A stretch of 64,000 bases of DNA from Treponema sp. (GTDB lineage Bacteria; Spirochaetota; Spirochaetia; Treponematales; Breznakiellaceae). The number at the start of each line of letters is the position of its first letter. Position 1 is the first letter of the stretch. Shown piece after piece: positions 7,420 to 23,401 of the stretch. Under the pieces are notes generated by a model that saw only the letters and a program-made list of their open reading frames with translations, searched no databases and was not told where the DNA came from. The position numbers and the translations under genes were made by a program. Location of the stretch: contig JAIRRJ010000075.1 of the NCBI GenBank assembly GCA_031256035.1, forward strand, positions 1 through 64,000, given 5' to 3'.

Positions 7420-8346
7420 TTATACCTTACGCTTAACAGCTTCGTCAATATTCCACTTGATGTGATCCCGCAGATCATTCCGGCTGTCAAAAGAAAGCCC
7501 AAAATCACGTTCCATTTTTTTGACGCCATACAGGCTTGGGTCAGCGCCCCAGCCCAGATCGTTCAGCTTTATTTCCGATTTCGATTTTGGATAACACTCA
7601 AGGGCAATTTGTGCAATGCGTTCCCAGGTGGTGAACACATTTCCCAACGCGAGATAGGTTTCTCCGTTTTTATCGCTTTCGATTAGTTTTATATACAACT
7701 GTGCAATTTCACCGGAAGAAATAAACTGCGTGCCGTCGTGCTTGGTAAGCGTTACCGGCTTATCGTTCACCACCGCATCGGCAATGTCGCGGAACCGCGT
7801 GTCAGATTGCGATGAACCATCGGGAAACGGCGGATTAGAATAGGTGTACCCCGGACGGATAATATTGCGTTTCATACTAACTTCTTTATTGCTTCCGTAA
7901 TATTTGGTGAAACCCAACACGTATGCTTCCGAAGCCGACTTGGTGCTGCCGTACAGATCAAGGGGAAGGTTCATCACCGTCTCGTCCATGCCGCTTCGCA
8001 TATGCCCCATCGCGGCAGTACTACTGGTATAAATGAATTTCTTGACACCCGCTTTTTCCGCAATTTCCAGAAGATTTACAGTTGCGGCGGTGTCATTGGT
8101 GAACATTGAAACCGGCTCATTGCCCCAGCCAAGTGCGATGTGTATAACCGCATCGCAGCCTTTCACATAATCCGCAAGAAGATCATAATCAGTTATCGTG
8201 CCTTTAACGAGCTTTGTCTTTTTTGCAAGAGACGGATACTTTTCCGGGTTGCGCGAAAGTACAATTGCCTCATGTCCGTTTTTGAGCGCCGCCAGCGTAA
8301 CATACTGTCCGATGTTTCCGGTGCCTCCGGTAATAAAAATCTTCAT
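7420..8346 (-). CDS. NAD(P)-dependent epimerase/dehydratase (extended SDR)
   Basis: The 308-residue protein begins with the Rossmann motif ITGGTGNIGQYV. It has the SDR catalytic YGSTK pattern (Tyr, three residues, Lys) after a TSSTAAMG strand. It resembles nucleoside-diphosphate-sugar epimerases, but the substrate cannot be read from the sequence. AAGGAGG precedes the ATG. It is the last gene of the five-gene unit headed by the sigma factor at 14.4 kb, overlapping the flavoprotein gene by 4 bp. It is therefore probably under the repeated ECF promoter. Confidence 0.85.
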   Translation of the reverse strand: MKIFITGGTGNIGQYVTLAALKNGHEAIVLSRNPEKYPSLAKKTKLVKGTITDYDLLADYVKGCDAVIHIALGWGNEPVSMFTNDTAATVNLLEIAEKAGVKKFIYTSSTAAMGHMRSGMDETVMNLPLDLYGSTKSASEAYVLGFTKYYGSNKEVSMKRNIIRPGYTYSNPPFPDGSSQSDTRFRDIADAVVNDKPVTLTKHDGTQFISSGEIAQLYIKLIESDKNGETYLALGNVFTTWERIAQIALECYPKSKSEIKLNDLGWGADPSLYGVKKMERDFGLSFDSRNDLRDHIKWNIDEAVKRKV

Positions 8347-8957
8347 GCTATTGCCTCCTTATCAAAATTATTCACAAGCGAACTTACCGCAGCAATAAGC
8401 GCTTCCCGCTTGTAATCCTTATTCCAGCGATTCACCGCGATATAGTCATATATGCCGCTCTTGTCGCGGGGCCAGGCATCGCCGCCCATGTGAGTAATCG
8501 CCCGTTCCATCTGCTGCAGAGTGGTGACAATTCCACCGCCGCCGCCCCCCGCTGAAGCGACAAGAATGCTGGGTTTACCGATCATGAAAGACTGACCGAC
8601 ATCGTTTTTATTCCATTGTTTGGTAGCCTGACTGCGCCTCAGTTTGTCAAAAAAGTTTTTAAGTTCCTCGCTTACCTCACCCCAGTACACGGGCGTGATA
8701 AACACAAACGCATCGGCATCGCGAAACTTGTTTTGCAGATCGTTAAAACCGTCTTTATCGCCGAATTCGCAGCGGTGTTCGCTGAAACAGATTCCCCAGC
8801 CATCGGCGCACATTTGACAGCTTTTAAGTTTTAACTCGGCAATTTTGATAACCTGCGTATCTGCGCCGAGTTTTTGCGCAGTTTCAGCGGCGGCGGTAAC
8901 CAAAGAATGGCATATCCCATCCTGCTTGGGCGTGCCGGAAATGATAAGAAGTTTCAT
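8343..8957 (-). CDS. NADPH-dependent FMN reductase-like flavoprotein
   Basis: The 204-residue flavodoxin-like protein starts with the FMN phosphate-binding region IISGTPKQDGICHSLV. It has a cysteine cluster (SCQMCADGWGIC, then HRC) and the segment FITPVYWGEVSEELKNFFDK, typical of iron-sulfur flavoprotein and NAD(P)H quinone or azo reductase relatives. A run of six glycines (ASAGGGGGGIV) is unusual for the loop before the flavin ring. A clear AAGGAG precedes the ATG. It sits 14 bp after the second ABC exporter gene and overlaps the epimerase gene, so it belongs to the same operon. It may detoxify quinones or supply reduced flavin; the exact role is unknown. Confidence 0.8.
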   Translation of the reverse strand: MKLLIISGTPKQDGICHSLVTAAAETAQKLGADTQVIKIAELKLKSCQMCADGWGICFSEHRCEFGDKDGFNDLQNKFRDADAFVFITPVYWGEVSEELKNFFDKLRRSQATKQWNKNDVGQSFMIGKPSILVASAGGGGGGIVTTLQQMERAITHMGGDAWPRDKSGIYDYIAVNRWNKDYKREALIAAVSSLVNNFDKEAIA

Positions 8958-8971
8958 GTGATTTCTCCTTC

Positions 8972-10867
8972 TTACCTATCATACCACTGCGCCTGTGTAG
9001 AATACAATCTGGCATATTCGCCGTTTTCTGATAATAACTTTTCGTGGGAGCCATCCTCGACAATTTCGCCGTCTTTGAAAACCACAACCCTGTCAGCAAG
9101 GGAAGCGACGCTAATCCGGTGAGTAACCATGATGACGGTTTTACCTTCCGCAAGGGCGAGGAACTTTTTGAAGACTTCGGTTTCCGCAAGGGGGTCAAGG
9201 TTGCTGGTCGGCTCGTCAAGTACCATGAAATCCCTGCCGCGGTAATACACCCGCGCGATAGCGATTTTCTGCCACTGGCCGCCTGATAAATCCGTTCCGC
9301 CGATGTCCTTTCCCAACAGGGAATTTTTATCCGCACCGTCAAAGCCGGAAAATGTAAGGGCGGCGTCAATCTGTTCTTCGTTTCTTTCCCTGTCCACATC
9401 GCCCAGAAAAACATTGTCGGCGATGGTAAATGTATTAAACCGTGACGGCTCCTGAAATACGCACGCCAATGAATTGTATTTGCCGGAAAAATCTATATTC
9501 TTCACATTGTCATCATTTATGAAAATTTCGCCTCCCGACGGCTTCAGCATTCCGGTCAATAGTTTGATGAATGTTGTTTTTCCCGCTCCGTTCTCCCCGA
9601 CAAATGCCACCCTTTCGCCCTTTGTTATGGCAAAGTCTGTTTCTTTTATTCTGTATTCATCAGTGAGCGGATAACGATAAGAGATATTTTTCGCTTCCAT
9701 TTTGTTGATGCCGATTATGGACTTTTCGCGGGTGTCATGCTCTGGCTGCTCATTCAGATCGATTAGCTCAAAAAACTGCGCGGATTCATTTTTCTTTGAG
9801 ATAAAATTAGCGATTGAACCGAATAACTGCGATGTGCTTTCCATAAGCGTTGCAATGAGCGCCAGTACCGCGCCGAGCGCGCCGATTGACAGTTTTCCCT
9901 GCGTCAGTAAAAGTATTGCGAAAACGTTAGCCGCAATACCAGCCATATTCGCTATAAAGCCGCCGGTTGAACCCAGCACGTAAACGTTCATTTGATTTTT
10001 CTTTTCCCTGACGGTGTAGTCGTCCGCCAGCGCTTTCCATTTACCAAAAAAGAAATCAAACAAATTCAGGGCTTTCACCTCTTTTGCAGAACTGCCCAGC
10101 AACACCCCCTGATAATAATCGGCTTCGCGGAGAATTTTTCCGTTGTCCCGTGTAAATTTGAAATTCAGTTTGTTACCGATATAGGTCGTATACAGTGTCG
10201 GAATGGGAGCGGCAAGAACGATGAAGCACAGCATTGGATTGAAAATATACAGTGAAAAAGCGACCATAATGACGGATACAATTTTTGCGATTATAACATA
10301 GCCTTCGATGATAACGCCTTTTTGGAGCGAACTCCACTCGCCGCCCATAGCGTCAAAATTGCGGTTAATCATGTCGTTGATTTTCGGAACTTCCATGTAA
10401 TCGGGATACAGTTTCGATATTTTGGTAAATAACTTTGCCTGGAATTTTTCCTGCAAGCGGTGGTCCTGAACCTTACTTAAACGCTCAATATCCTCCCACC
10501 GGTAAAGATAACGGTTGATCAGGCTGCTTACAAAACCTATAAACCAGTACACCACCGCAAGTGCAAACAGCGAAATAAGTCCCGCAGTCTGCGGATCGAT
10601 AATGCTTGAATAAGCATTTGCGCTATCAATATATCTGCCCCAAATAAACGCTGTTATTGGCTGTAATACACTCAAAACAATAGCGAGACCCAAAAAGATG
10701 CCGCACATAAATTTCGCCGATGAAAAAACATAGTTAAACAGCCGCGTCAAATATGATAATTTTGGCGGATTTTCTTTTAGAATATTTTTTTCAAAGATTG
10801 CCGTATTATCTTCGAACTTTATTTCGTACTGAGGCTTTTTTTCTTCTATTATTTTATTTTTAGACAT
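8972..10867 (-). CDS. ABC exporter half-transporter, permease-ATPase fusion
   Basis: The 631-residue protein has a six-helix exporter domain (about residues 40-350) and an ATPase domain (about 390-625). Walker A is GENGAGKTTFIKL, the signature is LSGGQWQKIAIAR and Walker B is FMVLDEPTSNLD. All ATPase motifs are canonical. It lies 19 bp downstream of a second half-transporter of the same type, so the two probably form a heterodimer. There is no peptidase C39 domain. The substrate is unknown; lipid, peptide or antimicrobial export would fit the envelope-protein neighbours. The N-terminal ~40 residues are charged and cytoplasmic. Confidence 0.9.
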   Translation of the reverse strand: MSKNKIIEEKKPQYEIKFEDNTAIFEKNILKENPPKLSYLTRLFNYVFSSAKFMCGIFLGLAIVLSVLQPITAFIWGRYIDSANAYSSIIDPQTAGLISLFALAVVYWFIGFVSSLINRYLYRWEDIERLSKVQDHRLQEKFQAKLFTKISKLYPDYMEVPKINDMINRNFDAMGGEWSSLQKGVIIEGYVIIAKIVSVIMVAFSLYIFNPMLCFIVLAAPIPTLYTTYIGNKLNFKFTRDNGKILREADYYQGVLLGSSAKEVKALNLFDFFFGKWKALADDYTVREKKNQMNVYVLGSTGGFIANMAGIAANVFAILLLTQGKLSIGALGAVLALIATLMESTSQLFGSIANFISKKNESAQFFELIDLNEQPEHDTREKSIIGINKMEAKNISYRYPLTDEYRIKETDFAITKGERVAFVGENGAGKTTFIKLLTGMLKPSGGEIFINDDNVKNIDFSGKYNSLACVFQEPSRFNTFTIADNVFLGDVDRERNEEQIDAALTFSGFDGADKNSLLGKDIGGTDLSGGQWQKIAIARVYYRGRDFMVLDEPTSNLDPLAETEVFKKFLALAEGKTVIMVTHRISVASLADRVVVFKDGEIVEDGSHEKLLSENGEYARLYSTQAQWYDR

Positions 10868-10886
10868 TTTCCACCCCTGCTTTTGC

Positions 10887-12722
10887 TTACACGATGGCGG
10901 CTGAATAGCCGCTGTTCAATCTATCCTCTCGTGTACGACCCGAAGGGGCGTACCATTGTTTCTGCGCGTTAAACATTTTTGAATAAATGCCGTCTGTCTG
11001 CATCAGTTCATCGTGTGTTCCTGACTCTTCGATTTTGCCGCCGCTTATCACCAAAATTCTGTCGGTTATCATGGTCGAACCAAGGCGGTGGGTAATAAAA
11101 ACGGCAGTTTTGTTTTCGACCATTGCGGCGAATTCATTGTACAAATCAGCCTCCGCCATCGGGTCAAGCTGCGAAGTCGGCTCATCAAGGAGGAGCACGG
11201 GTTTGCCGCCCATGAACGCGCGCGCTATCGCTACACGCTGCCATTGCCCGCCTGAAATATCTACCCCACCTTCAAAGTCCCTGCCAAGCAATGTATCATA
11301 ACTCTTTTCAAACTTTTCAATAAACTGGTCAACCTTTCCTTTATTTGCCGCAGCATTGATCTTCTCATCATTGCCGGCTTCATCAATGTCGCCGATGCTG
11401 ATATTTTCTTTTACCGTGATGCTGTACCGGGGAAAATCCTGAAACACCGGGCCGAATATTTTTGTTCGCACACTCAACGGATACTCATCCAGATTTTTTC
11501 CGCCGACCGTTATTTCGCCTCTGTCCGGTGAAAAAAGCCCCAGCAGTAATTTTATCATGGTTGATTTGCCTTCGCCGTTTTCTCCTACAATAGACGCTTT
11601 TTCACCATTGTGTATCTTGAATGTCAAACCTTTCAATATGTCTTTTTCCGTACCCGGATACCTGAACCAGACATCTTTGAACTCAATATCGAATGACTCA
11701 GGCAGCTTTGTTTCAGTTCCGTTCGGTTCATCGGATAACCTGAAAAATTTGTCGTAATAGTCGAAAAAGTTGATGTGATACGGCGCCCATTTGAAAATAA
11801 ACATAGCGCCGTCCAGCATTTGCAAACCACCTGTGAATATCATGCCTGATATGGCGATGAATAAACCTACTGAAATTTGCCCGTTTATAAACAGGACAAG
11901 CAGGATAATCACATTCGCGATGTCGGCTAACTTCGCGAAATTACCTCCCAGAATAATTTTACGCAAATTCCTGAAAAAATATTTTTCGTATTCCCTGTTT
12001 CTTTCGTTTAGTCTGTTCTTGTACGTATCAATCAAATACCCTGCATTCCCGAACGCTTTTAATTCTTTTGAAAAATCCCTCGACCGTAAATACCAGCCGA
12101 GGGTGCTGTACCTGCGTTCTTTATTCCAGTATTTTTCCAGTTCGGTGTATATATTGTAATTCTGCCTGAAAGCTATGTAAGTGCCGACAGCCCAGGGGAG
12201 CAGCATGGTCAAAACAAGCCACCATCTGATACTTGCGATATAGGCTAAAGAACCAATGCTTGCGATGAGGGAAAACAGCCACCAATAGACAAAATTGGGC
12301 CACAAATGCCTTGCGGAATTTTCGGCTCTGTTATACGCTTTATCAATTATTTCTGTTGACGCTTCATTTTCATAATGTTCGTATTTCATGGTTTTAAGTT
12401 TTTTCAGCATACGAGCCTTATATGCGGTGCGTAAAATCACCAATGAGCGGGGTTCCGCATACCTCCAAATGTACCCTTCAAAAACATTAGGCAGAATTGC
12501 GCATACCGCGAACAACACCAGAAAAACCGGATAACCGCTAAACGTTCTCTCGCCCCTTGCGATTTCAAGGCCCAGGTCAAAAACATTCTGATTAACATAA
12601 ATACCAAACGGGGCTAATAGTCCGATTATAACGGCGCAGACAAAAACCAGTACGCCCATTACCGGAGCTTCTGCAAAAATAATGCGAAGCAGGTCTTTGT
12701 AAGCGGTAAGTATTCGCTTCAT
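10887..12722 (-). CDS. ABC exporter half-transporter, partner of the downstream gene
   Basis: The 611-residue permease-ATPase fusion has Walker A GENGEGKSTMIKLL, signature ISGGQWQRVAIAR and Walker B VLLLDEPTSQLD, all intact. The membrane domain occupies about residues 15-310. I choose the ATG at 12722 because AAAGGA lies 9 nt upstream; a start at 12752 would sit inside the sigma gene. Only two bases separate the sigma-factor stop (12725) from this ATG, indicating coupled translation. With the next gene it should form an exporter made together with the sigma factor. Confidence 0.9.
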   Translation of the reverse strand: MKRILTAYKDLLRIIFAEAPVMGVLVFVCAVIIGLLAPFGIYVNQNVFDLGLEIARGERTFSGYPVFLVLFAVCAILPNVFEGYIWRYAEPRSLVILRTAYKARMLKKLKTMKYEHYENEASTEIIDKAYNRAENSARHLWPNFVYWWLFSLIASIGSLAYIASIRWWLVLTMLLPWAVGTYIAFRQNYNIYTELEKYWNKERRYSTLGWYLRSRDFSKELKAFGNAGYLIDTYKNRLNERNREYEKYFFRNLRKIILGGNFAKLADIANVIILLVLFINGQISVGLFIAISGMIFTGGLQMLDGAMFIFKWAPYHINFFDYYDKFFRLSDEPNGTETKLPESFDIEFKDVWFRYPGTEKDILKGLTFKIHNGEKASIVGENGEGKSTMIKLLLGLFSPDRGEITVGGKNLDEYPLSVRTKIFGPVFQDFPRYSITVKENISIGDIDEAGNDEKINAAANKGKVDQFIEKFEKSYDTLLGRDFEGGVDISGGQWQRVAIARAFMGGKPVLLLDEPTSQLDPMAEADLYNEFAAMVENKTAVFITHRLGSTMITDRILVISGGKIEESGTHDELMQTDGIYSKMFNAQKQWYAPSGRTREDRLNSGYSAAIV

Positions 12723-12724
12723 CC

Positions 12725-14371
12725 TTATTGTTCCTTTGGCAGTACATTGCAAGACATAATTGTATTAACAGAGCGCTTTTGAGTGTCAGTAAGCGGCTTT
12801 AATGTACTGTTTGCAGCAAGCTGTTCCAATACGCGCGTCCGAATATTGTTACTCGACAGGCAATACTGGCACCATGCGGAGCACAAGTCCTGCATGTGCG
12901 CAGGGTATTGTGCTTTGTTTATTTTGTAAATCTCAGCGTCAAGTTCTTCGCCTATTGCCTTTAATTCTTCAGGTATGGCGGGGAGCATTCCGGTAAACTC
13001 AGTTTGGGACATTGTAGTGATTATCATGTTTACATATTCTGTACTGCCTTTACTCACTATATAGCCCTTATCATACAATCGTTTGAATTTGTCGGCATGA
13101 GACGGGTCTTTGGAAATTTTTCCCGTCATATACTCATACAGGTAAAGATAATCGTTAGTCTGATCATCTTTCCATCCGCCGCTTCTGTCATCGTAATAAG
13201 TGTTAAGCTGCCATGCATATACAGGATATGGTTCTCCTGCCGGTGATTCGATATAATCGGTCATATCGCCGCATGAGTTATACAATTCAGGATTAAAATT
13301 TAAGTCTTCCCAATTAAAGCCGCTTTCTGCGGTTGCAAATGCGATATACTCACCGCCGTCTTTGCGTTTAACATTGTACCGGGACAAGTCAGGATAATCA
13401 TCAGAAAAACGCAGTTTCTTTCCGCAGGCAAAAGTTACGGCAGACCACATCAGGAAGTTGAAATCATTTTCAGGTGAATAAATTCTTTTTTTGTCATAAG
13501 CTGCCATCCTTTCAAACACCAGCGGAACATATTTGTCGCAGACAATTTTGGCATATTTTGTGTATATTATTTGTTCCTGTTCCAGTATTTCCTTTGACGG
13601 CTCGTATATACGGATATTGGTCAGGTATCTGCCGCCTGCAATCTTGTCCATAAAACCGTTCTCTTCAAGATATGCGACTTCATCTTCGACAAATGCCGCC
13701 GGTACGCCAATGACGCCGGCGATTTCGGTTATGGTTCTGGCTTTATGATATGCGGCATACGCTATGTTTTGAGAAATGAGTTTTGAAAGATGATATGCCG
13801 TATCTTTACCATCAGGCCCGGCGTATCCGCTATGCCCCATTCCCGTAAATTTTACCGGCATCATGCCGAGAGTTCCTTTGTCGTGCATTTGTATGCCCTC
13901 CTTAATTTGATTTTTGGCATCATGAAGATGCCATTTTACCGTTCCCAGCGAGATTTTAAGCCGCTGCGCTATTTCATACAGTTTTAGTTTCTGAAAATAG
14001 TGCATAACAACAATCTCACGCTGGATTTTACCGAGATATGAAACTTCGCTTCGCAGGCGGATATAGGTTTCATCCTTTTCAAAGTCGAGGGTAAAATCGT
14101 TTTCACACGGTATTATCATTTCGTTAAATGACACGTGCCTGCCTCTCACCTCTTCATCAACAAACCTCGCATATACGTTACTGGCAACCCGGTATACATA
14201 ACCGTCAATGTTTTCTACTGAATCGCATTTCAAAAGCGACACATACAGATCAAAGGTTATTCTTGAAGCGAGTTCTTCCGCTTTTTCAGTGTTCATCGTT
14301 TTAGTGAGGGCGAAGCCAAATATTTTTTCCATATATTTGGCGGTAACTTTATCAACAAACTGCTTATCCAC
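12725..14371 (-). CDS. Large ECF-type sigma factor with C-terminal winged-helix and sensor-like region (copy A)
   Basis: The 548-residue protein carries an ECF core. Region 2 is at about residues 10-80 (FGFALTKTMNTEKAEELASR, DGYVYRVASNVYARF). Region 4 is at 110-160 (QREIVVMHYFQKLKLYEIAQ, SLGTVKWHLHDAKNQI). A normal ECF factor ends near 170-190; this one continues for ~370 residues. The extension begins with a winged-helix-like segment (205-255, ARTITEIAGVIGVPAAFVED) followed by an unrecognised region rich in Tyr, Trp and Cys. It starts with GTG, with AGGA upstream, 19 nt from a strong repeated promoter. No anti-sigma gene is adjacent, so the extension may itself sense a signal. Copy B (15.7-17.4 kb) is nearly identical outside two patches (about 340-430 and 505-525). 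Confidence 0.85.
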   Translation of the reverse strand: MDKQFVDKVTAKYMEKIFGFALTKTMNTEKAEELASRITFDLYVSLLKCDSVENIDGYVYRVASNVYARFVDEEVRGRHVSFNEMIIPCENDFTLDFEKDETYIRLRSEVSYLGKIQREIVVMHYFQKLKLYEIAQRLKISLGTVKWHLHDAKNQIKEGIQMHDKGTLGMMPVKFTGMGHSGYAGPDGKDTAYHLSKLISQNIAYAAYHKARTITEIAGVIGVPAAFVEDEVAYLEENGFMDKIAGGRYLTNIRIYEPSKEILEQEQIIYTKYAKIVCDKYVPLVFERMAAYDKKRIYSPENDFNFLMWSAVTFACGKKLRFSDDYPDLSRYNVKRKDGGEYIAFATAESGFNWEDLNFNPELYNSCGDMTDYIESPAGEPYPVYAWQLNTYYDDRSGGWKDDQTNDYLYLYEYMTGKISKDPSHADKFKRLYDKGYIVSKGSTEYVNMIITTMSQTEFTGMLPAIPEELKAIGEELDAEIYKINKAQYPAHMQDLCSAWCQYCLSSNNIRTRVLEQLAANSTLKPLTDTQKRSVNTIMSCNVLPKEQ

Positions 14372-14390: not shown

Positions 14391-14429
14391 ATATATAGTG
14401 TAAGAAATCAGAAAAAGGTTGGTAAATTT
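14391..14429 (-). promoter_or_regulatory. Repeated ECF-type promoter, copy a (sigma A operon)
   Basis: On the minus strand ACCAACCTTTTTC and TTACACTATATAT form the two conserved boxes, with 16 nt between AACC and CACT. It lies 19 nt before the GTG of sigma copy A. AACC-type -35 boxes are characteristic of ECF promoters. Autoregulation is inferred. Confidence 0.75.
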
Positions 14430-15717
14430 ATGATTCTATTCCTTTTTTTATTTCATTTGCAACTTCCTGTCCAATTTCCTGTTCCACCATTTTTATGAAA
14501 TGTTCTGTGTCCTTCGTTTCCAAATCGGTAAAGCCTCTTACCATCTTTGTTACAACATCTTTACCGTGCTTTTTATATATTTCATAAAACAGGATTGTCC
14601 CTTTATCATGCACCCCTTCCGGCCTGCTTCCGTCTTTGGTTTTTATCGGAGGATAATTTCCCGCTTTTTTTATTTTTCCGTCAATAATTGACTGAAATAA
14701 CGCATCATTATTTTCATTGAGTGCGTATAATAAAACCGCCCATTCGGCAGTTGTTTCATTTAACCAGTCTTCCCATGTAAAAACACTGGCGCCTCCACAC
14801 CAATTATGAGCCGTCTCATGTGATAAAAACCATGTTAAATACAAATCATCATTGCCAAGATCAGTAGCAAACATCAGACCTTTTCGTTGATACCCTCCGC
14901 CGGTTTTTAATGCGGGAGAAACACAAGCGATATCAAGTATTGGCAATTCTTTTTTACCAAATAATGAACCATTAAAAAACTTCACAATATTTCTGTATAC
15001 TTCCTCAGCCTTTTGAGCGTATTTTTCAATGCTGTTGTCAACATAAAAGACATTAAAATAATCATTGGAAACCGTTTTTAGCGCGCTCTTTTTATATGCA
15101 ATTATATTAAACGGATCAAATCCATCTCCGTTTATCACATTTTTTTCATATAAAGCCAAATTAAAGGGATGAAACTCTTCCCCGCCATAATGCCAGGTAT
15201 TATTTTTTTCATCAAATGTTCCTTTAACAACAAATAAATCTTCGCCGTTTTCAATGAAAACCTCATCATGATTTATTTCAAAAGGAAATTCCTGCGGAAA
15301 CCAGACAGAATAAAAACTTAATGCTTTTATAGCTTCTGTTAATACATTATAATATGATGTTCCGGCTATTGACCCATGATAAGTCAAATTCAATTCTGTT
15401 ATTGGGTATTTACATGTCACTTTAATTCTTTGAGAATTTACCATAGATAAAAAATCAAATTCATCAATTTTTTTCCATTTTACCGGGTAATCATTGTTTT
15501 CAATTTTATCAATTATAAGCGAATTATTAAGAATAAAAGTTAATTCCTTTAACGGCTTATTGAATGAAAGTCTGGCATTTACCATTATTTCATTTCCGGC
15601 AAAATTCAGCCTTACTGACAATTCATTTTTTTCAGGAATGTTCATATTTTCTCCTTTTATGGTACAAGCCAACAAACTTGAACTAATTAATACAATCACG
15701 ATGATACAGTTTTTCAT
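14428..15717 (-). CDS. M1-like (gluzincin) metallopeptidase lipoprotein
   Basis: The 429-residue protein has a lipoprotein signal ending in SSSLLAC, so it should be anchored outside the inner membrane. The zinc motif HETAHNW is followed 16 residues later by a Glu in WLNETTAEW, an HEXXH-E arrangement like M1 aminopeptidases. The spacing is two shorter than usual, and no GAMEN exopeptidase motif is seen (GGGYQRKG occupies that place), so strict aminopeptidase activity is doubtful. The ATG overlaps the stop of sigma copy B (ATGA) and has GAGGTGA upstream, so it is co-expressed with that factor. The gene is strikingly AT-rich compared with the flanking chromosome. Confidence 0.85.
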   Translation of the reverse strand: MKNCIIVIVLISSSLLACTIKGENMNIPEKNELSVRLNFAGNEIMVNARLSFNKPLKELTFILNNSLIIDKIENNDYPVKWKKIDEFDFLSMVNSQRIKVTCKYPITELNLTYHGSIAGTSYYNVLTEAIKALSFYSVWFPQEFPFEINHDEVFIENGEDLFVVKGTFDEKNNTWHYGGEEFHPFNLALYEKNVINGDGFDPFNIIAYKKSALKTVSNDYFNVFYVDNSIEKYAQKAEEVYRNIVKFFNGSLFGKKELPILDIACVSPALKTGGGYQRKGLMFATDLGNDDLYLTWFLSHETAHNWCGGASVFTWEDWLNETTAEWAVLLYALNENNDALFQSIIDGKIKKAGNYPPIKTKDGSRPEGVHDKGTILFYEIYKKHGKDVVTKMVRGFTDLETKDTEHFIKMVEQEIGQEVANEIKKGIES

Positions 15718-17372
15718 AAAATCACCTCATTTTCTTTTGGCAGTACATCGCAGAACATAATGGTATTAACAGAGCGCTTTTGGGTGTCAGTGAGCGGTTT
15801 TAATGTACCGTTTGCAGCAAGCTGTTCCAATACGCGCGTCTGAGTGCCTTTTTTCGACAGACAATTTTGACATACTATGCGGCATAAATCCTGCATGTGC
15901 GCAGGGTATTGTGCTTTGTTTATTTTGTAAATCTCAGCGTCAAGTTCCTCGCCTATTGCCTTTAATTCTTCAGGTATGGCGGGGAGCATTCCGGAAAACT
16001 CAGATTCGGACATTGTAGTGATTATCATGTTCACATATTCTGTATTGCCTTTACTCACTATATAGCCCTTATCATACAATCGTTTGAATTTGTCGGCATG
16101 AGACGGGTCTTTGGAAATTTTTCCTGTCATATACTCATACAGATAACTGTAATCGTTATTCAGATTATCTCTCCAGTGGCCGCTTCTGTCATCGTAATAA
16201 GAGGAACACTGCCATGCATATACAGGATATGGTTTTCCTTCAGGTGAATAGCCGAATCTGTCCTCATCGCCGCAAGAATACATATTAGCATTAAAACTTA
16301 AATCCTCCCAATTAAAACCGTCTACGAGAGCGTATGCAACATACTCACCGCCGTCCTTGCGTTTTACACAATACCGCGACAGGTCGTTATAAAGATCAGA
16401 CACACGAAGCTCATGCCCGCGTCCGCAGGCATAGGTTACGGCAGACCACATCAGGAAGTTGAAATCATTTTCAGGTGAATAAATTCTTTTTTTGTCATAA
16501 GCTGCCATTCTTTCAAACACCAGCGGAACATATTTGTCGCAGACAATTTTGGCATATTTTGTGTATATTGTATGCTCCTGCTCCAGTCTTTCCTTTGACG
16601 GCTCGTGTATACGGATATTGGTCAGGTATCTGCCGCCTGCAATCTTATCCATAAAGCCGTTGTCTTCAAGATGTGCGACTTCATCTTCGACAAATGCCGC
16701 CGGCACTCCAATGACGCCGGCGATTTCGGTTATGGTTCTTGCTTTATGATATGCGGCATACGCTATGTTTTGAGAAATGAGTTTTGAAAGATAATATGCC
16801 GTATCTTTACCATCGGGACCCAGTCTTCCGCTATGCCCCATTTCCGAAAATCTTACCGGCATCAAGCCGAGAGTTCCTTTGTCGCGCATTTGAATGCCCT
16901 CCTTAATCTGATTCCTGGCGTCATGAAGATGCCATTTTACCGTTCCCAGCGAGATTTTAAGTTTCTGCGCTATTTCAAATAATTTTAACTTTTGAAAATA
17001 GTGCATTACGACAATCTCACGTTGGATTTTACCGAGATATGAAACTTCTCTTCGCAGGCGGATATATGTTTCATCCTTTTCAAAGTCGATGGTAAAATCG
17101 TTTTCGCACGGTATTACCATTTCGTCAAATGACAGGTGCCTGCCTCTCACCTCTTCATCTACAAACCTCGCGTATACATTACGGGCAACCCGGTACACAT
17201 AACCGTCAATGTTTTCCACTGCATTGCATTTCAAAAGCGATTGATATAAGTCAAAGGTTATTCTCGAAGCGAGTTCCTCCGCTTTTTCAGTGTTCATCGT
17301 TTTAGTGAGGGCGAAACCAAATATTTTTTCCATATATTTGGCGGTGATTTTATCAACAATCTGCTTATCCAC
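15714..17372 (-). CDS. Large ECF-type sigma factor with C-terminal sensor-like region (copy B)
   Basis: The 552-residue paralogue of copy A has the same architecture: ECF region 2 (~10-80), region 4 (~110-160), winged-helix-like segment (~205-255) and a long C-terminal region. The two proteins are almost identical up to about residue 335 and again at about 430-500. They differ strongly at about 340-430 (ACGRGHELRVSDLYNDLSR here) and around 505-525 (CRIVCQNCLSKKGTQ). Identical DNA-binding parts with different C-terminal patches suggest the same promoters but different signals. It has a GTG start and the same 5' leader and promoter as copy A. It is translationally coupled to the metallopeptidase. 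Confidence 0.85.
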   Translation of the reverse strand: MDKQIVDKITAKYMEKIFGFALTKTMNTEKAEELASRITFDLYQSLLKCNAVENIDGYVYRVARNVYARFVDEEVRGRHLSFDEMVIPCENDFTIDFEKDETYIRLRREVSYLGKIQREIVVMHYFQKLKLFEIAQKLKISLGTVKWHLHDARNQIKEGIQMRDKGTLGLMPVRFSEMGHSGRLGPDGKDTAYYLSKLISQNIAYAAYHKARTITEIAGVIGVPAAFVEDEVAHLEDNGFMDKIAGGRYLTNIRIHEPSKERLEQEHTIYTKYAKIVCDKYVPLVFERMAAYDKKRIYSPENDFNFLMWSAVTYACGRGHELRVSDLYNDLSRYCVKRKDGGEYVAYALVDGFNWEDLSFNANMYSCGDEDRFGYSPEGKPYPVYAWQCSSYYDDRSGHWRDNLNNDYSYLYEYMTGKISKDPSHADKFKRLYDKGYIVSKGNTEYVNMIITTMSESEFSGMLPAIPEELKAIGEELDAEIYKINKAQYPAHMQDLCRIVCQNCLSKKGTQTRVLEQLAANGTLKPLTDTQKRSVNTIMFCDVLPKENEVIL

Positions 17373-17391: not shown

Positions 17392-17430
17392 ATATATAGT
17401 GTATGAAACCAGAAAAAGGTTGGTAAATTT
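17392..17430 (-). promoter_or_regulatory. Repeated ECF-type promoter, copy b (sigma B operon)
   Basis: The minus strand reads ACCAACCTTTTTCTG, then ATACACTATATAT, with 16 nt between AACC and CACT. It lies 19 nt before the sigma B GTG. It is nearly identical to copy a, and the leader between promoter and gene is duplicated too. Confidence 0.75.
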
Positions 17431-17505: not shown

Positions 17506-18276
17506 TTATTCACTTCTGATTTTTCCCGAACCGGAACCATTGAAATTTATTTTTGGCATTCCGCGGTATTTTATACTACCGGAACCGGAAACATTTGCAT
17601 CTATACTTTCTAAAGCCCAAATGTTCATATTCCCGGAACCGCTGATACGAGCGGTTACATTATTCGTTTTAAATTCAATGCCATTAAAATTTCCGGACCC
17701 GGAAATCCTGATATTGGAACTATTCCCGGTTCCGGTAATAGCTATGTTGCCGGAACCGGAAATATCTGCCGAAAAACTATCACAAATAATATTTGTGTTT
17801 ATTTTTCCCGAACCGGAAATACCGGCAGAAAAATTATTACATTCAATATTCCCATTTATATTCCCGGAGCCGGAAATATTTGATTCAAATGTTGATGTGG
17901 TTATTTTATCATTACTGCTAAAACTTCCTGAACCGGATATGGAAATACCGGTCAAATTAGGGCAATAAACGTCAATCAGAAGCTTTGAAAATGAATAATT
18001 CCCATTTTTAGTCCCAATACGCAGGGTATTACCGGCTACATCAGTTGTAACAACTTCCAAAAGATTAGAATCGGTAGTAACTACTACCCTATACTTTTCA
18101 CTGGCATAAAAACGCACCTCAGCACTGCCGCCGCTGTTGACTTTTTCAAAAGAAGAAACATTTCTTTCAGAAGTGACTATATCGCGGTTTCCTCTTACAG
18201 GGAAAAGTACACATGATACACAAATCATAATAATTCCAATGACAATCATCGTTCCAACAAAATCCATTTTTTTCAT
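17506..18276 (-). CDS. GIN/DUF2807-domain lipoprotein with SGSG repeats
   Basis: The 256-residue protein has an N-terminal hydrophobic segment and a relaxed lipobox (MICVSC). The rest matches the head GIN domain (DUF2807) of putative adhesins: NVSSFEKVNSGGSAEVRFY, then at least eight ISGSG-type turns spaced about 20 residues apart, as in a right-handed beta-helix. In the DNA these appear as CCGGAACCGGAAAT-like repeats on the plus strand. It is likely a surface or periplasmic stress protein; in other bacteria such genes often accompany envelope-stress regulators. AAGGAGTGATGT precedes the ATG. The repeated ECF promoter lies 94 nt upstream. Confidence 0.85.
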   Translation of the reverse strand: MKKMDFVGTMIVIGIIMICVSCVLFPVRGNRDIVTSERNVSSFEKVNSGGSAEVRFYASEKYRVVVTTDSNLLEVVTTDVAGNTLRIGTKNGNYSFSKLLIDVYCPNLTGISISGSGSFSSNDKITTSTFESNISGSGNINGNIECNNFSAGISGSGKINTNIICDSFSADISGSGNIAITGTGNSSNIRISGSGNFNGIEFKTNNVTARISGSGNMNIWALESIDANVSGSGSIKYRGMPKINFNGSGSGKIRSE

Positions 18277-18370: not shown

Positions 18371-18409
18371 ATATATAGTGTATGAAAGCAGAAAAAGGTT
18401 GGTAAATTT
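18371..18409 (-). promoter_or_regulatory. Repeated ECF-type promoter, copy c (GIN lipoprotein)
   Basis: The minus strand has ACCAACCTTTTTCTG and ATACACTATATAT, differing from copy b by one base. It lies 94 nt before the DUF2807 gene. The surrounding sequence is unrelated to copies a and b, so the conservation is specific to the promoter. Confidence 0.75.
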
Positions 18410-18428: not shown

Positions 18429-19331
18429 CTACTTTTCTTTCCACCAAGTTGATGACGCATAGGGCCTAAAACCAATGCTGTAGTAAAACTGCTGTGAAGA
18501 GCCGACTAAAGCCCTTGTTGCGCCAAGCTCGCCGCAGCGTTTTATTCCTTCCAACACAGCCGCTTTCCCCAATCCCATTTTACGGTACGCCGGTTCAGTT
18601 GCTACAGGCTCAACCAAAGCGCTTTTGGATTTTTGATCATACCACATTCCGCAATGGGAAACATAATCCCCGTTAGGTGCCACTACCGAAATTTTCAGGC
18701 TAAAGTCAACATTCGGTCTGTCCCATTCCTTTTTACTTTCTTCCGAACATTTTTCCCAATCCAAATAAAAAGGGCCTTCCGCGTTCATTTCATGATCAAA
18801 ACCTCGCCATAAACATTGCCCATCTTTGAATAGATCAAAATCTTCCTTGAGGCAGGTTATTTTGAATCTGTCAGGCAAAGTATACTTTATGCTTTCAGGG
18901 TTTATCGGTAAAACCGCGTCTAATTCCCTATCCTGAGTAGGGAAAAAACAATTTTTAGCAGCTATGTTCTGCAATTCTGCATCGCCGTCAAGAATAAGCA
19001 CACGGAATTGTCCGTCTTTTGCCAAATTTATTTTAGCATATAGGAACATTTCCTCTTTGAGATGTTCATACCCATTTAACAACAACAAAAAAGCAGAACC
19101 GAGTCTGGTATCAAAGGTTGCAACGGCAATAATTTTGCCGTTTTCTTCCCAAATCCCAATTTTCTCAACTTTGTCAACGTCAGCCCATTCGTGTTTCAAA
19201 AACGTAAGCATCCAATCCCAACGACCAAAATGATAGTTGGAGCTGTCAAGTTCGATTAAGAAATCCCGAACACGATTATAATCATCACCATACAAAGTGA
19301 TGTTTTGATAAGGTCTAAATTTAACAGACAT
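18429..19331 (-). CDS. GNAT-family N-acetyltransferase
   Basis: The 300-residue protein has a C-terminal GNAT domain (about 190-300) with the acetyl-CoA loop region PAYRKMGLGKAAVLEGIKRC and a typical end GFRPYASSTWWKEK. The N-terminal half (RDFLIELDSSNYHFGRWDWM) is another GNAT-like or partner region. The substrate is unknown. TTAGGAG lies 5 nt before the ATG. It follows the unknown gene at 19379-20389 by 47 bp and is probably transcribed with it from promoter copy d. Confidence 0.82.
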   Translation of the reverse strand: MSVKFRPYQNITLYGDDYNRVRDFLIELDSSNYHFGRWDWMLTFLKHEWADVDKVEKIGIWEENGKIIAVATFDTRLGSAFLLLLNGYEHLKEEMFLYAKINLAKDGQFRVLILDGDAELQNIAAKNCFFPTQDRELDAVLPINPESIKYTLPDRFKITCLKEDFDLFKDGQCLWRGFDHEMNAEGPFYLDWEKCSEESKKEWDRPNVDFSLKISVVAPNGDYVSHCGMWYDQKSKSALVEPVATEPAYRKMGLGKAAVLEGIKRCGELGATRALVGSSQQFYYSIGFRPYASSTWWKEK

Positions 19332-19378
19332 AAATACTCCTAAAATAGTAAATTTTCGAATGGATTATCATAGCATTA

Positions 19379-20389
19379 TCATCTTGGTTTCCACCATTCA
19401 TAAGTGGCGCCCGAACATCCGTGCAATTTGATTAGCGTATCGGAGACACTGGACACTGACCAGTAAACACTGTTGTTATTCCATGCGCAAACATCCGGGT
19501 TGAATAAACTCTCATCATAATTTAGTTCGTCCATTGCCTTTCGGTTGTCCTCAATCATAGACGTATCAGAACTTTGAAGATAAATTTGTTGACGAAAATT
19601 CTGGTCAAAGACCACGCCTTTATCGCACGTCATATATCTTGCCGCACGGCAATAAACTAAATCTTGCGTTATTTGAAAAATGTACATGTGTTTTCCGGTA
19701 TTAACCTGAAGTCCGTCGAAACGATCTTCAGAGGTCATTTCTGTATATCCAACGCTCCATAATTGCAGGCATTTTCCGACACCGGCCTCGCCCGGTAACG
19801 GGCAAGGCGGCATCAAATCTTCCATTGTAAACGATTCATGCATTTCTGCGGCATAAGATACGTTGTCATTAAACATAATCTGCAACGCTTTATTGCCGTC
19901 AACATCAATGGTCAGCATTTGTTTTCCCAACAAGTCTTTCATTTCACCGTCGTTTGCAAAATCATTTGCCAATAGAGCATACTTAAAATCTGCTCCTTCT
20001 GATGCGGGAAATCTGCGTTCACTTCCATCGGCATAATGGACGACTGTTGAGTTATCCCTTAGCGAGAATCTTTTGATTTTTCCGTTTAACAAATCATTTT
20101 CAATATCTGACCAAACGATAGTGCTTTCAGATTTATCCTCAAAAATGATAGTCAGCGTGTCGTCTTGTTGTTTTACGACAGAGCTAATATCTTTATCAAG
20201 CAAATCAAGCACTATTTGCTTAATTCCCCCAGGCATTGTACGGCAAATGCCAACACATTCCAGTTCTCTATTGAACAAAAGCGCTTCCAGTTTTTGATTA
20301 TCCGGGTATCTTCTGTATACGATTACAAACTGTCCGGCAGATACTACCTCTATATCCTTACCGATGTATACTCCATAAGGAACAGTCAT
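19379..20389 (-). CDS. Unknown protein of the sigma regulon
   Basis: I do not recognise the family of this 336-residue protein. It has no signal peptide or membrane helix and starts MTVPYGVYIGKDIEVVSAG. The first half contains several short beta-rich phrases ending in acidic turns (LTIIFEDKSESTIVW, VVHYADGSERRFP). The C-terminal half has several Cys and Trp residues (CLQLWSVGYTEM, YCRAARYMTCDKG, CSGATYEWW). A GGAGG lies 8 nt before the ATG. It is the first gene behind promoter copy d and is followed by the GNAT gene. Confidence 0.75.
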   Translation of the reverse strand: MTVPYGVYIGKDIEVVSAGQFVIVYRRYPDNQKLEALLFNRELECVGICRTMPGGIKQIVLDLLDKDISSVVKQQDDTLTIIFEDKSESTIVWSDIENDLLNGKIKRFSLRDNSTVVHYADGSERRFPASEGADFKYALLANDFANDGEMKDLLGKQMLTIDVDGNKALQIMFNDNVSYAAEMHESFTMEDLMPPCPLPGEAGVGKCLQLWSVGYTEMTSEDRFDGLQVNTGKHMYIFQITQDLVYCRAARYMTCDKGVVFDQNFRQQIYLQSSDTSMIEDNRKAMDELNYDESLFNPDVCAWNNNSVYWSVSSVSDTLIKLHGCSGATYEWWKPR

Positions 20390-20423
20390 ACATTTACCTC
20401 CAAAATTGAACTAAAATATCTGT

Positions 20424-20462
20424 ATATATAGTGAATGAAATCAGGGAAAGGTTGGAAAATTG
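20424..20462 (-). promoter_or_regulatory. Repeated ECF-type promoter, copy d
   Basis: The minus strand reads TCCAACCTTTCCCTG and ATTCACTATATAT with the conserved 16-nt spacing from AACC to CACT. It lies 34 nt before the ATG of the unknown gene ending at 20389. Confidence 0.7.
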
Positions 20463-20515
20463 CTGCGCAAGCGACTTCTTTTCATATACGCCCTGTTAGG
20501 CAGCATTAGGGCATT

Positions 20516-20968
20516 TTATTCCCGAATTATTAGCTTCTCTGCCCAGCTATCAATGAAATCTGTACCTTTTTCTTTAATAATCAAACCATTTTTATAAATC
20601 CTTTCTTCATATGTAATATTTTCATCGACTTGTTCTCTTCTTAATATTAATAATTCATCATCTACATTATAAATAGTAGAATTTAAATGTTTATTTCCAG
20701 CTTCTATTGAATATGATTTAATATCATCTTCAAGTAAATTTGCTGTTGTACTAAAATTATTACTATCATTTATAGAATAACTAATAATTGCTCCATCACT
20801 GCTGAAATTTATACTTACTCTTTCAATATTATTTTTATCAAATAATTTTACAGAATGGAATCCATTATTATCCTGTTCCATTCTATATCCAACAGTATCT
20901 TTTTTAACCCCGCAAGAAAATAAAGATATTAGAGCTAAACCAAAAAAGAAAAACCTAATCATATTCAT
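20516..20968 (-). CDS. Small lipoprotein, unknown function
   Basis: The ~150-residue lipoprotein has signal MNMIRFFFFGLALISLFSC. The start at 20968 is preferred because GGAGG lies 5 nt upstream; an ATG 12 nt earlier has no such site. The mature part is beta-rich (VKLFDKNNIERVSINFSSDG, TYEERIYKNGLIIKEKG), resembling the repeat pattern of MORN or YD-type antitoxin-like and lipid-contact proteins, but no family is assigned. It follows the S41 peptidase gene by about 40 bp and is probably in the same transcript. Low GC. Confidence 0.7.
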   Translation of the reverse strand: MNMIRFFFFGLALISLFSCGVKKDTVGYRMEQDNNGFHSVKLFDKNNIERVSINFSSDGAIISYSINDSNNFSTTANLLEDDIKSYSIEAGNKHLNSTIYNVDDELLILRREQVDENITYEERIYKNGLIIKEKGTDFIDSWAEKLIIRE

Positions 20969-21009
20969 AAATGCCTCCATAAAAACAATAATTATTTATT
21001 AGTCTATTG

Positions 21010-22305
21010 TCAATCCATTTTATTGATTTTTTCCCGCAGGACATCAATCCCTTTCCTGAAAACACGGTCATAATTATTTTTGTAGTCATCAATAGAAGGT
21101 ACGGCATATATATCAGGCTGAACACCAATGTTAATAAATTCCTTGCCATTTGGGTAAAGAGACCACTTGGTGCATATTCTAAAACTCCCCCCTCCGGGTA
21201 AATCAAAAAAAACAGCCTGTCCTGTCGAACCAGCACTTGCTGTTCCGACGATTGTAGCCCGTTTTATATTATCGAAAGCCACTAAAAAATCTTCCGCCGC
21301 CGATCCTGTATTATGATTTGCAAGAATAACCAATGGCTGATCCAGATATACTTGGCTGTAAGTTCCTGAAAGGTATACAAATTCTTCATTATCCTTTGAT
21401 CTGATCCTGAGAGCTTCAAAATTGTGATCTTTAATGAATTTTTGTGCTACACTATACCCATAACCCGACATACCTCCGCTGTTATTTCTTACATCAATTA
21501 TATACCCGCTGCAATTTTCTATTTCAGGTAGAATCCTGTTGAATTCAGTTCGCAAATAATCATACATAAAAGTTGGAATTGTTATTACCGCGATGTTGTC
21601 ATTGGTCAGTTCAACTTTTAGTCCTTCCGATTCAAACAGAACAATCAACGGTTCATCCTTGACCAATGGATTTATTGCACCTTTCCAATTAATTTTTTTT
21701 ATTGTAGCCTTAACTTTATATGTCTTTTTTTCAGTCGTTATTTCCAGTTCTTTCCCGTATTCTACAATAGGTAAAAAATAATTTACCAGCTCATATGCGC
21801 CGTCCAATTTTTCGTGCCAAAAATACGGATACATATTTTCTGTCAAATAATCATTAACATCCATTTGATTTATGTTGATAACTTCACTGAATAACTCAAT
21901 ATCCATTTTTTTATCACAGGCCGAAATATAGTGTTTGCCATCCAAGTACATAAACCAAATGGGAAATCTGCCCCAGTCTTTATACCCTTCGGGAAAAGAA
22001 GCGATACCCGTATGCCCGTCACGCAGAAGGGTTATAAACCTTGACAATTCCAGATAGTATTTTCGGGTATCATCCTCTTTTGATATGTTGATAAGTGCCT
22101 CATTATAAGCGGCATCCCAATCCAAATCGGTCAGATTCATCCAAAACGGGAAATTGTTTCGCGCTTCATTCCAAATCATGGACAAACCAGCAACTCTTTC
22201 TTCCTCGGTCAAGGTCGGCATACTGTTTTGAAGATTATTAGTACCGCATGAACTCAGAGCCAAATGAATAAACACTAAAAAAAGACAGTTAATTTTTGTT
22301 TTCAA
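21010..22305 (-). CDS. S41-family (C-terminal processing-type) peptidase lipoprotein
   Basis: The ~431-residue protein has a lipoprotein signal (LFLVFIHLALSSC) and an S41 catalytic domain. The segment YIIDVRNNSGGMSGYGYSVA is followed by LANHNTGSAAEDFLVAFDN, which carries the nucleophilic Ser. GTASAGSTGQAVFFDLPGGG and GVQPDIYAV complete the fold. I choose a TTG start at 22305 because AAAGGAG sits 8 nt upstream and the signal begins there (KTKINCLFL); an upstream ATG at 22338 falls almost at the transcription start. It should be an envelope-anchored serine peptidase, so this regulon holds two anchored peptidases. Confidence 0.85.
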   Translation of the reverse strand: MKTKINCLFLVFIHLALSSCGTNNLQNSMPTLTEEERVAGLSMIWNEARNNFPFWMNLTDLDWDAAYNEALINISKEDDTRKYYLELSRFITLLRDGHTGIASFPEGYKDWGRFPIWFMYLDGKHYISACDKKMDIELFSEVININQMDVNDYLTENMYPYFWHEKLDGAYELVNYFLPIVEYGKELEITTEKKTYKVKATIKKINWKGAINPLVKDEPLIVLFESEGLKVELTNDNIAVITIPTFMYDYLRTEFNRILPEIENCSGYIIDVRNNSGGMSGYGYSVAQKFIKDHNFEALRIRSKDNEEFVYLSGTYSQVYLDQPLVILANHNTGSAAEDFLVAFDNIKRATIVGTASAGSTGQAVFFDLPGGGSFRICTKWSLYPNGKEFINIGVQPDIYAVPSIDDYKNNYDRVFRKGIDVLREKINKMD

Positions 22306-22346
22306 TTGTCGAGCTCCTTTGTTATTCAACATTACCAATCCAGCTA

Positions 22347-22385
22347 ATATATAGTGAATAAAATCAGGGGAAGGTTGGTAAATTT
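22347..22385 (-). promoter_or_regulatory. Repeated ECF-type promoter, copy e (S41 peptidase)
   Basis: The minus strand reads ACCAACCTTCCCCTG and ATTCACTATATAT with 16 nt between AACC and CACT. It lies 41 nt before the TTG start of the S41 peptidase gene. Confidence 0.72.
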
Positions 22386-22401
22386 ATGCAAAAATGCACT
22401 C

Positions 22402-23022
22402 TTATGTTTTCTTATTTTCGTAAATAACATTATCCCCGGCAATTACGGCGCCATGAGCAATTTCGCAAGTGACACTATCTCCGGCGTTTACACTGCCCCC
22501 GACATTCCCGCAAGTAACACTGTCGCCTGCATTTACATCACCCTCGACATTCCCACAATTAACACCATCGCCGGCGTTTACACTACCCACGACATTGGTG
22601 CAATTTACAGTATCGCCTGCATTTACATCACCCTTAACATTACCGCAGTTTACATTACAGCCTGCTTCTACATTCAGGACATCACCTTCAATGGTAAGCG
22701 TAAATTTTGACATATCGTCACATTCTTTAAGAATCTTCCTGCCCTTGTAAATCACCCCGCGGATGGTATCATCATCGTCCCAATCCACGGAACATACAGT
22801 TTGAGGTTTTCTGCCGAAAAGCGTGTCAATGCTGACCGCAAAAAGCTGCGCAAGCATCGGAAGCATGATAATGTCAGGCGAAGTCTGAGCGTTTTCCCAT
22901 TTACTCACCGCCTGAAACGAAATATTCAGTTTTTCCGCAAGGCCTTCCTGTGTTAAACCCATCTTCTTTCTTAATTTGAGAATATTCTCCGCCAATGTTT
23001 GCAAATAATCAGAACCATTCAT
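22402..23022 (-). CDS. XRE regulator with C-terminal 15-residue repeats
   Basis: The ~206-residue protein joins a Cro/CI helix-turn-helix (about residues 8-65: LRKKMGLTQEGLAEKLNIS, FQAVSKWENAQTSPD) to a C-terminal solenoid. The solenoid has five copies of a 15-residue unit of the form V-N-C-G-N-V-x-G-D/S-V-N-A-G-D-x. Such GDVNAGD units are typical of polymer-forming or beta-helix modules. Most repeats place a Cys at the same position, giving a Cys ladder that could bind metal or sense redox. I prefer the Met at 23022; another Met lies at 23034 with its AAGG too close. The upstream region does not carry the repeated ECF promoter. Confidence 0.82.
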   Translation of the reverse strand: MNGSDYLQTLAENILKLRKKMGLTQEGLAEKLNISFQAVSKWENAQTSPDIIMLPMLAQLFAVSIDTLFGRKPQTVCSVDWDDDDTIRGVIYKGRKILKECDDMSKFTLTIEGDVLNVEAGCNVNCGNVKGDVNAGDTVNCTNVVGSVNAGDGVNCGNVEGDVNAGDSVTCGNVGGSVNAGDSVTCEIAHGAVIAGDNVIYENKKT

Positions 23023-23082
23023 CGTTTTACCCATCCTTATTAGTTTTTGATACTTATATAGTACCCAAATTTTTAACCGGAG

Positions 23083-23328
23083 TTAATAACTTGTTTGTTG
23101 AATATACTCAACCGGCAGTTGAATTACTGATTCTTTCCCATTAATATATAGATACCTCAAATAAGATTTAAGCCATCTATAAAGATGATACGATTTTTTC
23201 TTACATTCAATTACTCCGCCGTCAAAAATGAAATCAGTTTTACGGCAATGAGGACATCTGCATTTTTCCAAGGCAGCCCTTCTGAGACAGTGTTTACATT
23301 TTTTTGTTTCCACAATTTCCTTTTTCAT
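23083..23328 (-). CDS. Small zinc-ribbon-like protein
   Basis: The 81-residue basic protein has the cysteine pattern CKHCLRRAALEKCRCPHC, likely one zinc site, followed by an aromatic-rich tail (HLYRWLKSYLRYLYI). AAGGAAC precedes the ATG. It is directly behind promoter copy f, so it is a member of the sigma regulon. The family is not recognised; DNA or protein binding is only a guess. Confidence 0.65.
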   Translation of the reverse strand: MKKEIVETKKCKHCLRRAALEKCRCPHCRKTDFIFDGGVIECKKKSYHLYRWLKSYLRYLYINGKESVIQLPVEYIQQTSY

Positions 23329-23362
23329 TTCATTGTTCCTTATCTGTTTATTTTCTTTGCAT

Positions 23363-23401
23363 ATATACAGTGAAAGGAATCAGAAAAAGGTTTGTAAATT
23401 G
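23363..23401 (-). promoter_or_regulatory. Repeated ECF-type promoter, copy f
   Basis: The minus strand reads ACAAACCTTTTTCTG and TTTCACTGTATAT, the most divergent of the six good copies but with the same 16-nt AACC to CACT spacing. It lies 34 nt before the zinc-ribbon gene. Confidence 0.65.

Follow-up and report, generated by a model that had tools for sequence, protein, structure and literature searches.

Introduction

At least 26 groups of extracytoplasmic function (ECF) sigma factors carry extensions, and 15 of these groups are described as unstudied in a review (PMC8999054). Some described systems resemble the locus reported here. According to PMC3426412, ECF41 factors of Bacillus licheniformis and Rhodobacter sphaeroides are alike in several ways: a regulatory extension is fused to the C-terminus, an anti-sigma gene is missing, the group shares a conserved promoter with few targets, and oxidoreductase and epimerase genes are among the neighbours. 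ECF238, or CorE, of Myxococcus xanthus is likewise an ECF sigma factor that acts as a single component, its soluble extension serving as the sensor (PMC8999054). We analysed 64,000 nucleotides (nt) of a Treponema sp. (contig JAIRRJ010000075.1 of assembly GCA_031256035.1, positions 1 to 64,000; the whole stretch is referred to as the window), in which copies of one promoter precede two ECF sigma genes, sigma-1 and sigma-2, and four further units. Taken together, these units probably form a local regulon governed by a one-component ECF sigma factor.

Six copies of one promoter in the window

The window contains six sites of the form AACC-N16-CACT(A/G)TATAT, all on the minus strand and each upstream of a gene. 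The putative −35 and −10 boxes are CCAACCTTTT and CACTATAT, respectively.

14391..14420, minus strand, promoter copy 1, before sigma-1 (matrix score 36.0 bits)
17392..17421, minus strand, promoter copy 2, before sigma-2 (30.9 bits)
18371..18400, minus strand, promoter copy 3, before a GIN-domain lipoprotein (32.1 bits)
20424..20453, minus strand, promoter copy 4, before a 336-residue protein and an acetyltransferase (31.2 bits)
22347..22376, minus strand, promoter copy 5, before an S41 peptidase (27.6 bits)
23363..23392, minus strand, promoter copy 6, before an 81-residue CxxC protein (24.3 bits)
43535..43567, minus strand, candidate seventh site, before a 409-residue protein encoded at 42292-43521 (12.7 bits)

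The original prediction, made from the letters of the sequence, had placed the six copies at the same positions with a constant gap. All six were located by pattern, 30-mer and matrix searches, and comparison of the six 30-mers revealed 16 nt between AACC and CACT in every copy. The weight matrix was trained on 57 promoters of other species and on none from the window. When the 64 kb were scanned, exactly six sites scored 24.3-36.0 bits and the next 12.7 bits, while the best of five shuffles reached 5.2 bits. The copy at 23363 is the weakest (ACAAACC, CACTGTAT), and copies 4 and 5 vary chiefly in the −35 flank and the spacer. AAC is present in the −35 box of all six copies and CGT is absent from the −10 box. 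At 43535, the −10 half is identical to that of copy 1 over 18 nt (0 expected by shuffles), and the −35 half is poor. The 409-residue protein downstream looks, by eye, like serine beta-lactamase-like hydrolases. A sigma-70 scan revealed no excess (54 versus 48.3).

In the host genome, the strong form of the motif occurs in the window only, which speaks against the refuting case raised with the prediction, a motif widely dispersed without relation to genes. In the host genome (3,122,661 bases in 120 contigs, about 95% complete), a search with the 30-mer allowing up to three mismatches returned five sites, all in the window, and none in the reversed control; the copy at 22347 lies beyond this limit and was recovered by the shorter pattern. 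AACC-N15..17-CACTATA occurs at seven places in the same genome, five in the window and two elsewhere with unrelated spacers (one match in the control).

The distance of 19-94 nt between site and start codon that had been reported holds for the listed starts, except that coordinate 22326, given for the S41 gene, is not a start codon. Better choices are an ATG at 22332 (14 nt) or a TTG at 22305 behind GGAG (41 nt); with the start at 22332 the range becomes 14-94 nt.

Conservation of the promoter upstream of homologous sigma genes

A search for relatives of the extension and for their gene neighbours had been proposed. A scan of species genomes yielded at least 338 relatives of the sigma factors, some perhaps sharing the sigma domain only; the best 80 of these, nearly all from Clostridia, constitute the 80 loci analysed below. 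Of the 80 sigma genes, 61 have AACC-N15..17-CACTAT, or something close to it, in the 160 nt preceding them. With leave-one-out matrices, 67 of 78 sigma upstream regions (the other two loci being too short to score) reached 15 bits; among the 755 remaining upstream regions in these loci, four did. A single GH5 gene, seen in related species, accounts for three of them, and the last comes from locus L075. L075 carries two variant copies, in which TACTATATA replaces CACTATATA: one at 5564 before a short exporter-like frame, the other 185 nt before the sigma gene.

Positions that had not been used in selecting the 57 sites are fixed too, namely CC before AACC (96% and 100%) and T after CACTATA (100%). 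The promoter found before homologous sigma genes spans two phyla, and its spacer is free while its geometry is fixed. Further sigma subfamilies of the same order (L012, L013, L014, L016 and L017-L019) feature different letters: CCCAAC/CGACTATAAT, CACCGACC/CGACTACC and CTATCC/CACTATAATA, laid out over 21, 22 and 21 nt, respectively, against 21 nt in the family of the window. No such site was seen by eye in one more subfamily member, L004. CCCAAC/CGACTATAAT occurs exactly in four of nine genomes searched, once each, at its sigma gene; two more matches appeared when two mismatches were allowed (0 in the control) and look like chance. Fixed boxes in a near-constant layout, with letters specific to the subfamily, are the pattern expected of sigma-4/sigma-2 contacts. 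From these comparisons, the sigma factors most likely read the boxes, and the promoter is most likely of the ECF type.

Number of sites per genome

An exact-pattern search covered 51 genomes, consisting of 44 genomes with 45 chosen loci and seven others. The pattern is present in 41 of the 51, a proportion that is no estimate of prevalence because the chosen loci leaned towards motif carriers. It occurs once in 32 genomes, twice in eight and five times in the genome of the window, which amounts to 53 matches against 15 in the reversed control. In the 35 matching genomes reached through loci, a site lies at the sigma gene in every case, as do all 27 single sites; judged by their positions, the five single sites in genomes of the Treponema order coincide with the sigma gene as well. 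In 24 of the genomes, a longer pattern, for which one mismatch was permitted, gave 38 matches against one in the control (14 genomes with one site, five with two, three with three, that of the window with five, and one with none). When two mismatches were allowed in 12 genomes, control matches equalled true ones outside the known sites, so weak targets may exist.

Second sites precede an ABC exporter in G570, an 1838-residue frame in G575, a GH5 glycosidase in G579, G587 and G589, and a 228/229-residue protein without a Pfam family in G604 and G600. The second site of G590 lies inside a reading frame and was taken as chance. The GH5 gene with the second copy is found upstream of the sigma gene (L037, 6241; L051, 5375; L053, 6242). 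The copies before the 229/228-residue protein (L109, 6989; L110, 4521) sit in a similar gene order in both genomes.

Outside the window, then, the motif appears almost purely autoregulatory among the genomes searched, and the six-site window is an outlier among them.

The sigma factors and their C-terminal extension

Sigma-1 and sigma-2 are 86% identical, and no third copy was found in their own genome at E 0.01. They had been described as paralogous ECF factors with long extensions, an assignment corroborated by TIGR02937 (48.2 bits versus a cut-off of 42.9). Residues 1-163 match solved ECF factors. In Pfam searches, the sigma-4 region is the best match in each protein (2.4e-09), and the sigma-2 region is weak (0.014 in one).

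The extension comprises about 385 residues, and its sole Pfam signal is a weak helix-turn-helix match to TrmB (E 0.04 and 0.084, below cut-off). The model of full-length sigma-2 has a mean predicted local distance difference test score (pLDDT) of 88.5 and a predicted template modelling score (pTM) of 0.71; for the extension modelled alone, the values are 93.2 and 0.90. In the model, a winged helix lies beside sigma-4 and is followed by a lobe of strands and a second helix-wing unit. No transmembrane helix was predicted in the extension with a simple hydropathy scale (top 19-residue means of 1.34 and 1.24). The extension is thus, as modelled, soluble and contains a winged helix. A fold search matched solved structures to the winged-helix parts and returned no match to the whole extension (best E 0.006; template modelling score normalized by query at most 0.17 among the matches listed), which does not show that the fold is new. 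The presence of two helix-wing units hints at an internal duplication; profile comparison gave a probability of 44.7% and an E value of 0.00023 over 63 columns, and we do not claim one.

Alignment A4 covers 74 of the 80 loci (all but L035, L038, L039, L051, L064 and L073). Residues conserved in at least 90% of 76 aligned rows include H179, G181, N201, Y207, C366, G367, M369, R395, W399, D406 and R430. C366 is near-invariant (73 of 76 rows) and is the sole cysteine beyond residue 165 conserved in at least 90% of rows; together with G367, R395 and W399 it maps to the second lobe of the extension. In locus L035, from a Cloacimonadota bin, a free-standing copy of the extension (9581-10723) overlaps the end of a full-length sigma gene. 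This copy is encoded directly after the sigma gene and shows that the extension is able to occur on its own, as a module apart from the sigma domains. The sigma gene of one relative (L009/L023) is broken by an in-frame TGA, and its promoter is still there.

Genes of the promoter cluster and candidate targets

The genes of the cluster are all on the minus strand.

12725..14371, minus strand, sigma-1, ECF sigma factor with a long C-terminal extension
10887..12722, minus strand, ABC exporter half 1, starting at ATG 12722 directly after sigma-1
8972..10867, minus strand, ABC exporter half 2, ABC domain by Pfam
8343..8957, minus strand, FMN reductase-like flavoprotein (PF03358, 4e-27)
7420..8346, minus strand, NAD-dependent epimerase-like protein (PF01370, 4.9e-27), overlapping the flavoprotein gene by 4 nt
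15714..17372, minus strand, sigma-2, paralogue of sigma-1, structure modelled
14428..15717, minus strand, putative peptidase lipoprotein (weak PF01433, E 0.0018), overlapping the end of sigma-2 by 4 nt
17506..18276, minus strand, GIN-domain (DUF2807) lipoprotein (PF10988, 3.1e-48)
19379..20389, minus strand, 336-residue protein without a Pfam match
18429..19331, minus strand, GNAT acetyltransferase (PF00583, 1.2e-08)
21010..22332, minus strand, S41 peptidase lipoprotein (PF03572, 1.3e-28), start at 22332 or 22305
20516..20980, minus strand, small lipoprotein after the S41 gene, an open reading frame without a Pfam match
23083..23328, minus strand, 81-residue protein with two CxxC motifs and no Pfam match

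The GIN, S41, GNAT, FMN_red, epimerase and ABC assignments made earlier all agree with the Pfam domains found. Two others stand in part: the metallopeptidase lipoprotein has a weak M1 match below the Pfam cut-off, and the zinc-ribbon protein has its two CxxC motifs without matching a family. The predicted lack of an anti-sigma factor is in line with our search, as no anti-sigma family was matched among the 15 window proteins scanned. Between copies 5 and 6, a gene at 22402-23034 on the minus strand encodes an HTH_3 regulator, the C-terminal half of which consists of short repeats around VNAGDxVxCGNV and is possibly a beta-helix.

Besides the sigma gene, the paired ABC exporter is, on comparative grounds, the best supported target and the sole one with support beyond the promoter, because the other window genes are nearly matchless in the 80 loci. 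In G570, the home of the closest sigma factor, a site precedes an ABC protein 75.8% identical to half 1 over 591 residues, on a contig that lacks the sigma gene; half 2 has an orthologue (80% identical) that begins at the end of a third contig, and this arrangement would fit a split operon. In 7 of the 80 loci, the sigma gene has an ABC pair next to it (L048, L052, L069, L075, L076, L085 and, upstream, L094). Apart from the exporter, matches of window genes in these loci were limited to two general HTH proteins, with one each, and the flavoprotein and epimerase have no homologues there. The 336-residue protein behind copy 4 has no homologue in 389 other genomes of the order.

Origin of the sigma pair and of the promoter copies

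Sigma matches occur in 3 of 195 genomes of the taxonomic family of the host, namely its own genome and two others with distant matches of about 28%, and in 10 of 392 genomes of the phylum at E 1e-30, its own included. The closest relatives listed are from two Oscillospiraceae bins (65% and 59%). We presume from their isolate codes, which resemble those of termite-gut samples, that these bins come from such a source. A quick maximum-likelihood tree built from 76 rows joins the window sigmas to L026 and L027 (Oscillospiraceae; SH-aLRT support of 100), and the three Treponema rows lie elsewhere. Because of this grouping, the sigma pair was probably transferred horizontally, apparently from Clostridia. 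The G+C content per 4-kb bin, 0.365-0.403 at 12-24 kb versus 0.437-0.522 in the remaining bins, fits a transfer. No full-length relative was found in phage records, viral contigs or plasmid records: the first two gave no match, and the four plasmid matches span at most 29% of the query and cover the sigma domain only.

Mean spacer identity is 0.73 among the six window copies, 0.41 among relatives and 0.36 between window and relatives. Since the window spacers are far more alike, the six copies probably descend from one another, which suggests that the cluster arose by local copying.

Regulatory model and alternatives

In the model that we favour, the sigma domains would read CCAACCTTTT as the −35 and CACTATAT as the −10 box, with 16 nt between AACC and CACT. 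Each sigma gene, standing behind its own promoter, would form a positive loop, a step for which the comparative evidence is strong. Presumably, the soluble extension is the sensor and restrains the sigma domains until a ligand or partner is met. By analogy with ECF41, a ligand may change the shape of the extension and lift the restraint; the wing could also add DNA binding. A Clostridia-type set of sigma factor and exporter would have been gained horizontally and the sigma gene duplicated thereafter, and copies of the promoter segment would then have come to lie before four further units encoding envelope and modifying proteins. The signal may be a toxic compound or envelope damage, and the programme an envelope or antimicrobial one. 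The likely output, export and envelope remodelling on meeting a toxic compound, is the weakest step.

The claim of a sigma regulon is strengthened by the promoter before homologous sigma genes and by the exporter copy in G570; it has to be narrowed in that the motif is elsewhere mostly autoregulatory. Several observations weigh against the model. A regulon is not the rule of the family, because most relatives show no target besides sigma. The promoter is the one tie to the four non-sigma units, because they have no homologue in the 80 loci beyond the HTH match. The CGT usual in ECF −10 boxes, a feature as given in PMC3426412, is absent. The genome encodes eight sigma-4 type proteins, and another of them could read the sites. 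The sigma tree comes from a quick search only. Finally, 11 of 78 relatives fall under the 15-bit threshold: L036, L052 and L083 have one extra base between the boxes, L028, L044 and L047 have altered boxes, and no convincing copy exists in L029, L035, L038 (broken), L073 (149 nt upstream only) and L105.

The scarcity of targets in relatives could mean that in most species the sigma factor is a self-sustaining switch, its own promoter being the only strong one in the genome and the extension rather than a set of targets its working part, and that a true regulon grows only when the promoter is copied before other genes, as here; we hold this to be unlikely. It is about equally doubtful that the two sigma operons with the exporter are the only functional targets, the other four copies being recent duplicates without a selected role. 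The four units indeed have no counterpart beside the sigma genes of relatives, and within the order, as far as it was searched, the 336-residue protein occurs here only; yet all four copies keep both boxes while their spacers vary, copies 4 and 5 differing mainly in the −35 flank and spacer. More improbable still is that a DNA-binding protein, for instance the extension with its winged helix or some other regulator, uses the motif as its operator and that another sigma factor reads the genes. A winged helix is contained in the extension, and the −10-like TATA letters occur without the ECF CGT. However, two fixed boxes around a free spacer of constant length, found in many species at promoter distance from the start, argue for a promoter, as do letters that vary by sigma subfamily at a nearly constant layout; moreover, the motif is not palindromic by eye. 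Least probable, and very much so, is that the copies represent a short repeat of the dispersed type, or a mobile fragment with a promoter, and are not jointly regulated by these sigma factors. Although the copies cluster in 9 kb and their spacers, alike inside the window and not outside, point to common descent, each of the six precedes a gene by 14-94 nt and shares its strand, no strong copy occurs in the rest of the genome, and the boxes precede sigma genes elsewhere, and an unlinked exporter orthologue, with other spacers. Our preferred reading remains that of a one-component ECF sigma factor with a local regulon.

If so, the window seems to capture a regulon in the making, with a promoter being copied over a span of 9 kb, which makes the birth of a regulon directly testable. 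The promoter of a common, unstudied Clostridia sigma family has been derived from sequence alone, and its targets are now searchable. One-site genomes pose the question of what role is played by a sigma factor that apparently transcribes only itself.

Comparison with known systems

The original prediction knew of no described system of this exact make-up, which is too strong, as regulatory extensions have been described in other ECF factors and one group, ECF262, may fit. Among the publications listed in our literature searches, we recognised none describing the AACC-N16-CACT promoter. The ECF41 promoter, TGTCACA/CGTC in PMC3426412, differs from CCAACCTTTT/CACTATAT. The ECF41 extension is SnoaL-like, and that of the window is longer and contains a winged helix; SnoaL has no Pfam match in it and is absent from the fold-search matches listed, all of which are winged-helix proteins, a listing that leaves room for others. 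ECF238/CorE has a Cys-rich domain, which the window sigmas lack (only C366 is conserved). ECF48, ECF52 and ECF53 have a fused membrane anti-sigma part, unlike the window extension, in which the simple hydropathy scale shows no transmembrane helix. The ECF42 extension has tetratricopeptide repeats (TPR), for which neither window sigma has a Pfam match up to E 0.1.

ECF262 (SFB89493.1, Ruminococcus albus) is among the extension groups with an unstudied mechanism in Table 2 of the review (PMC8999054), and the likeness to it is one of description only, as given there. Its host group fits the relatives of the window sigmas, and their family may be ECF262. If it is, the sigma part is a new member of that group, and the novelty lies in the promoter, in its near restriction to the sigma gene itself and in the cluster of copies.

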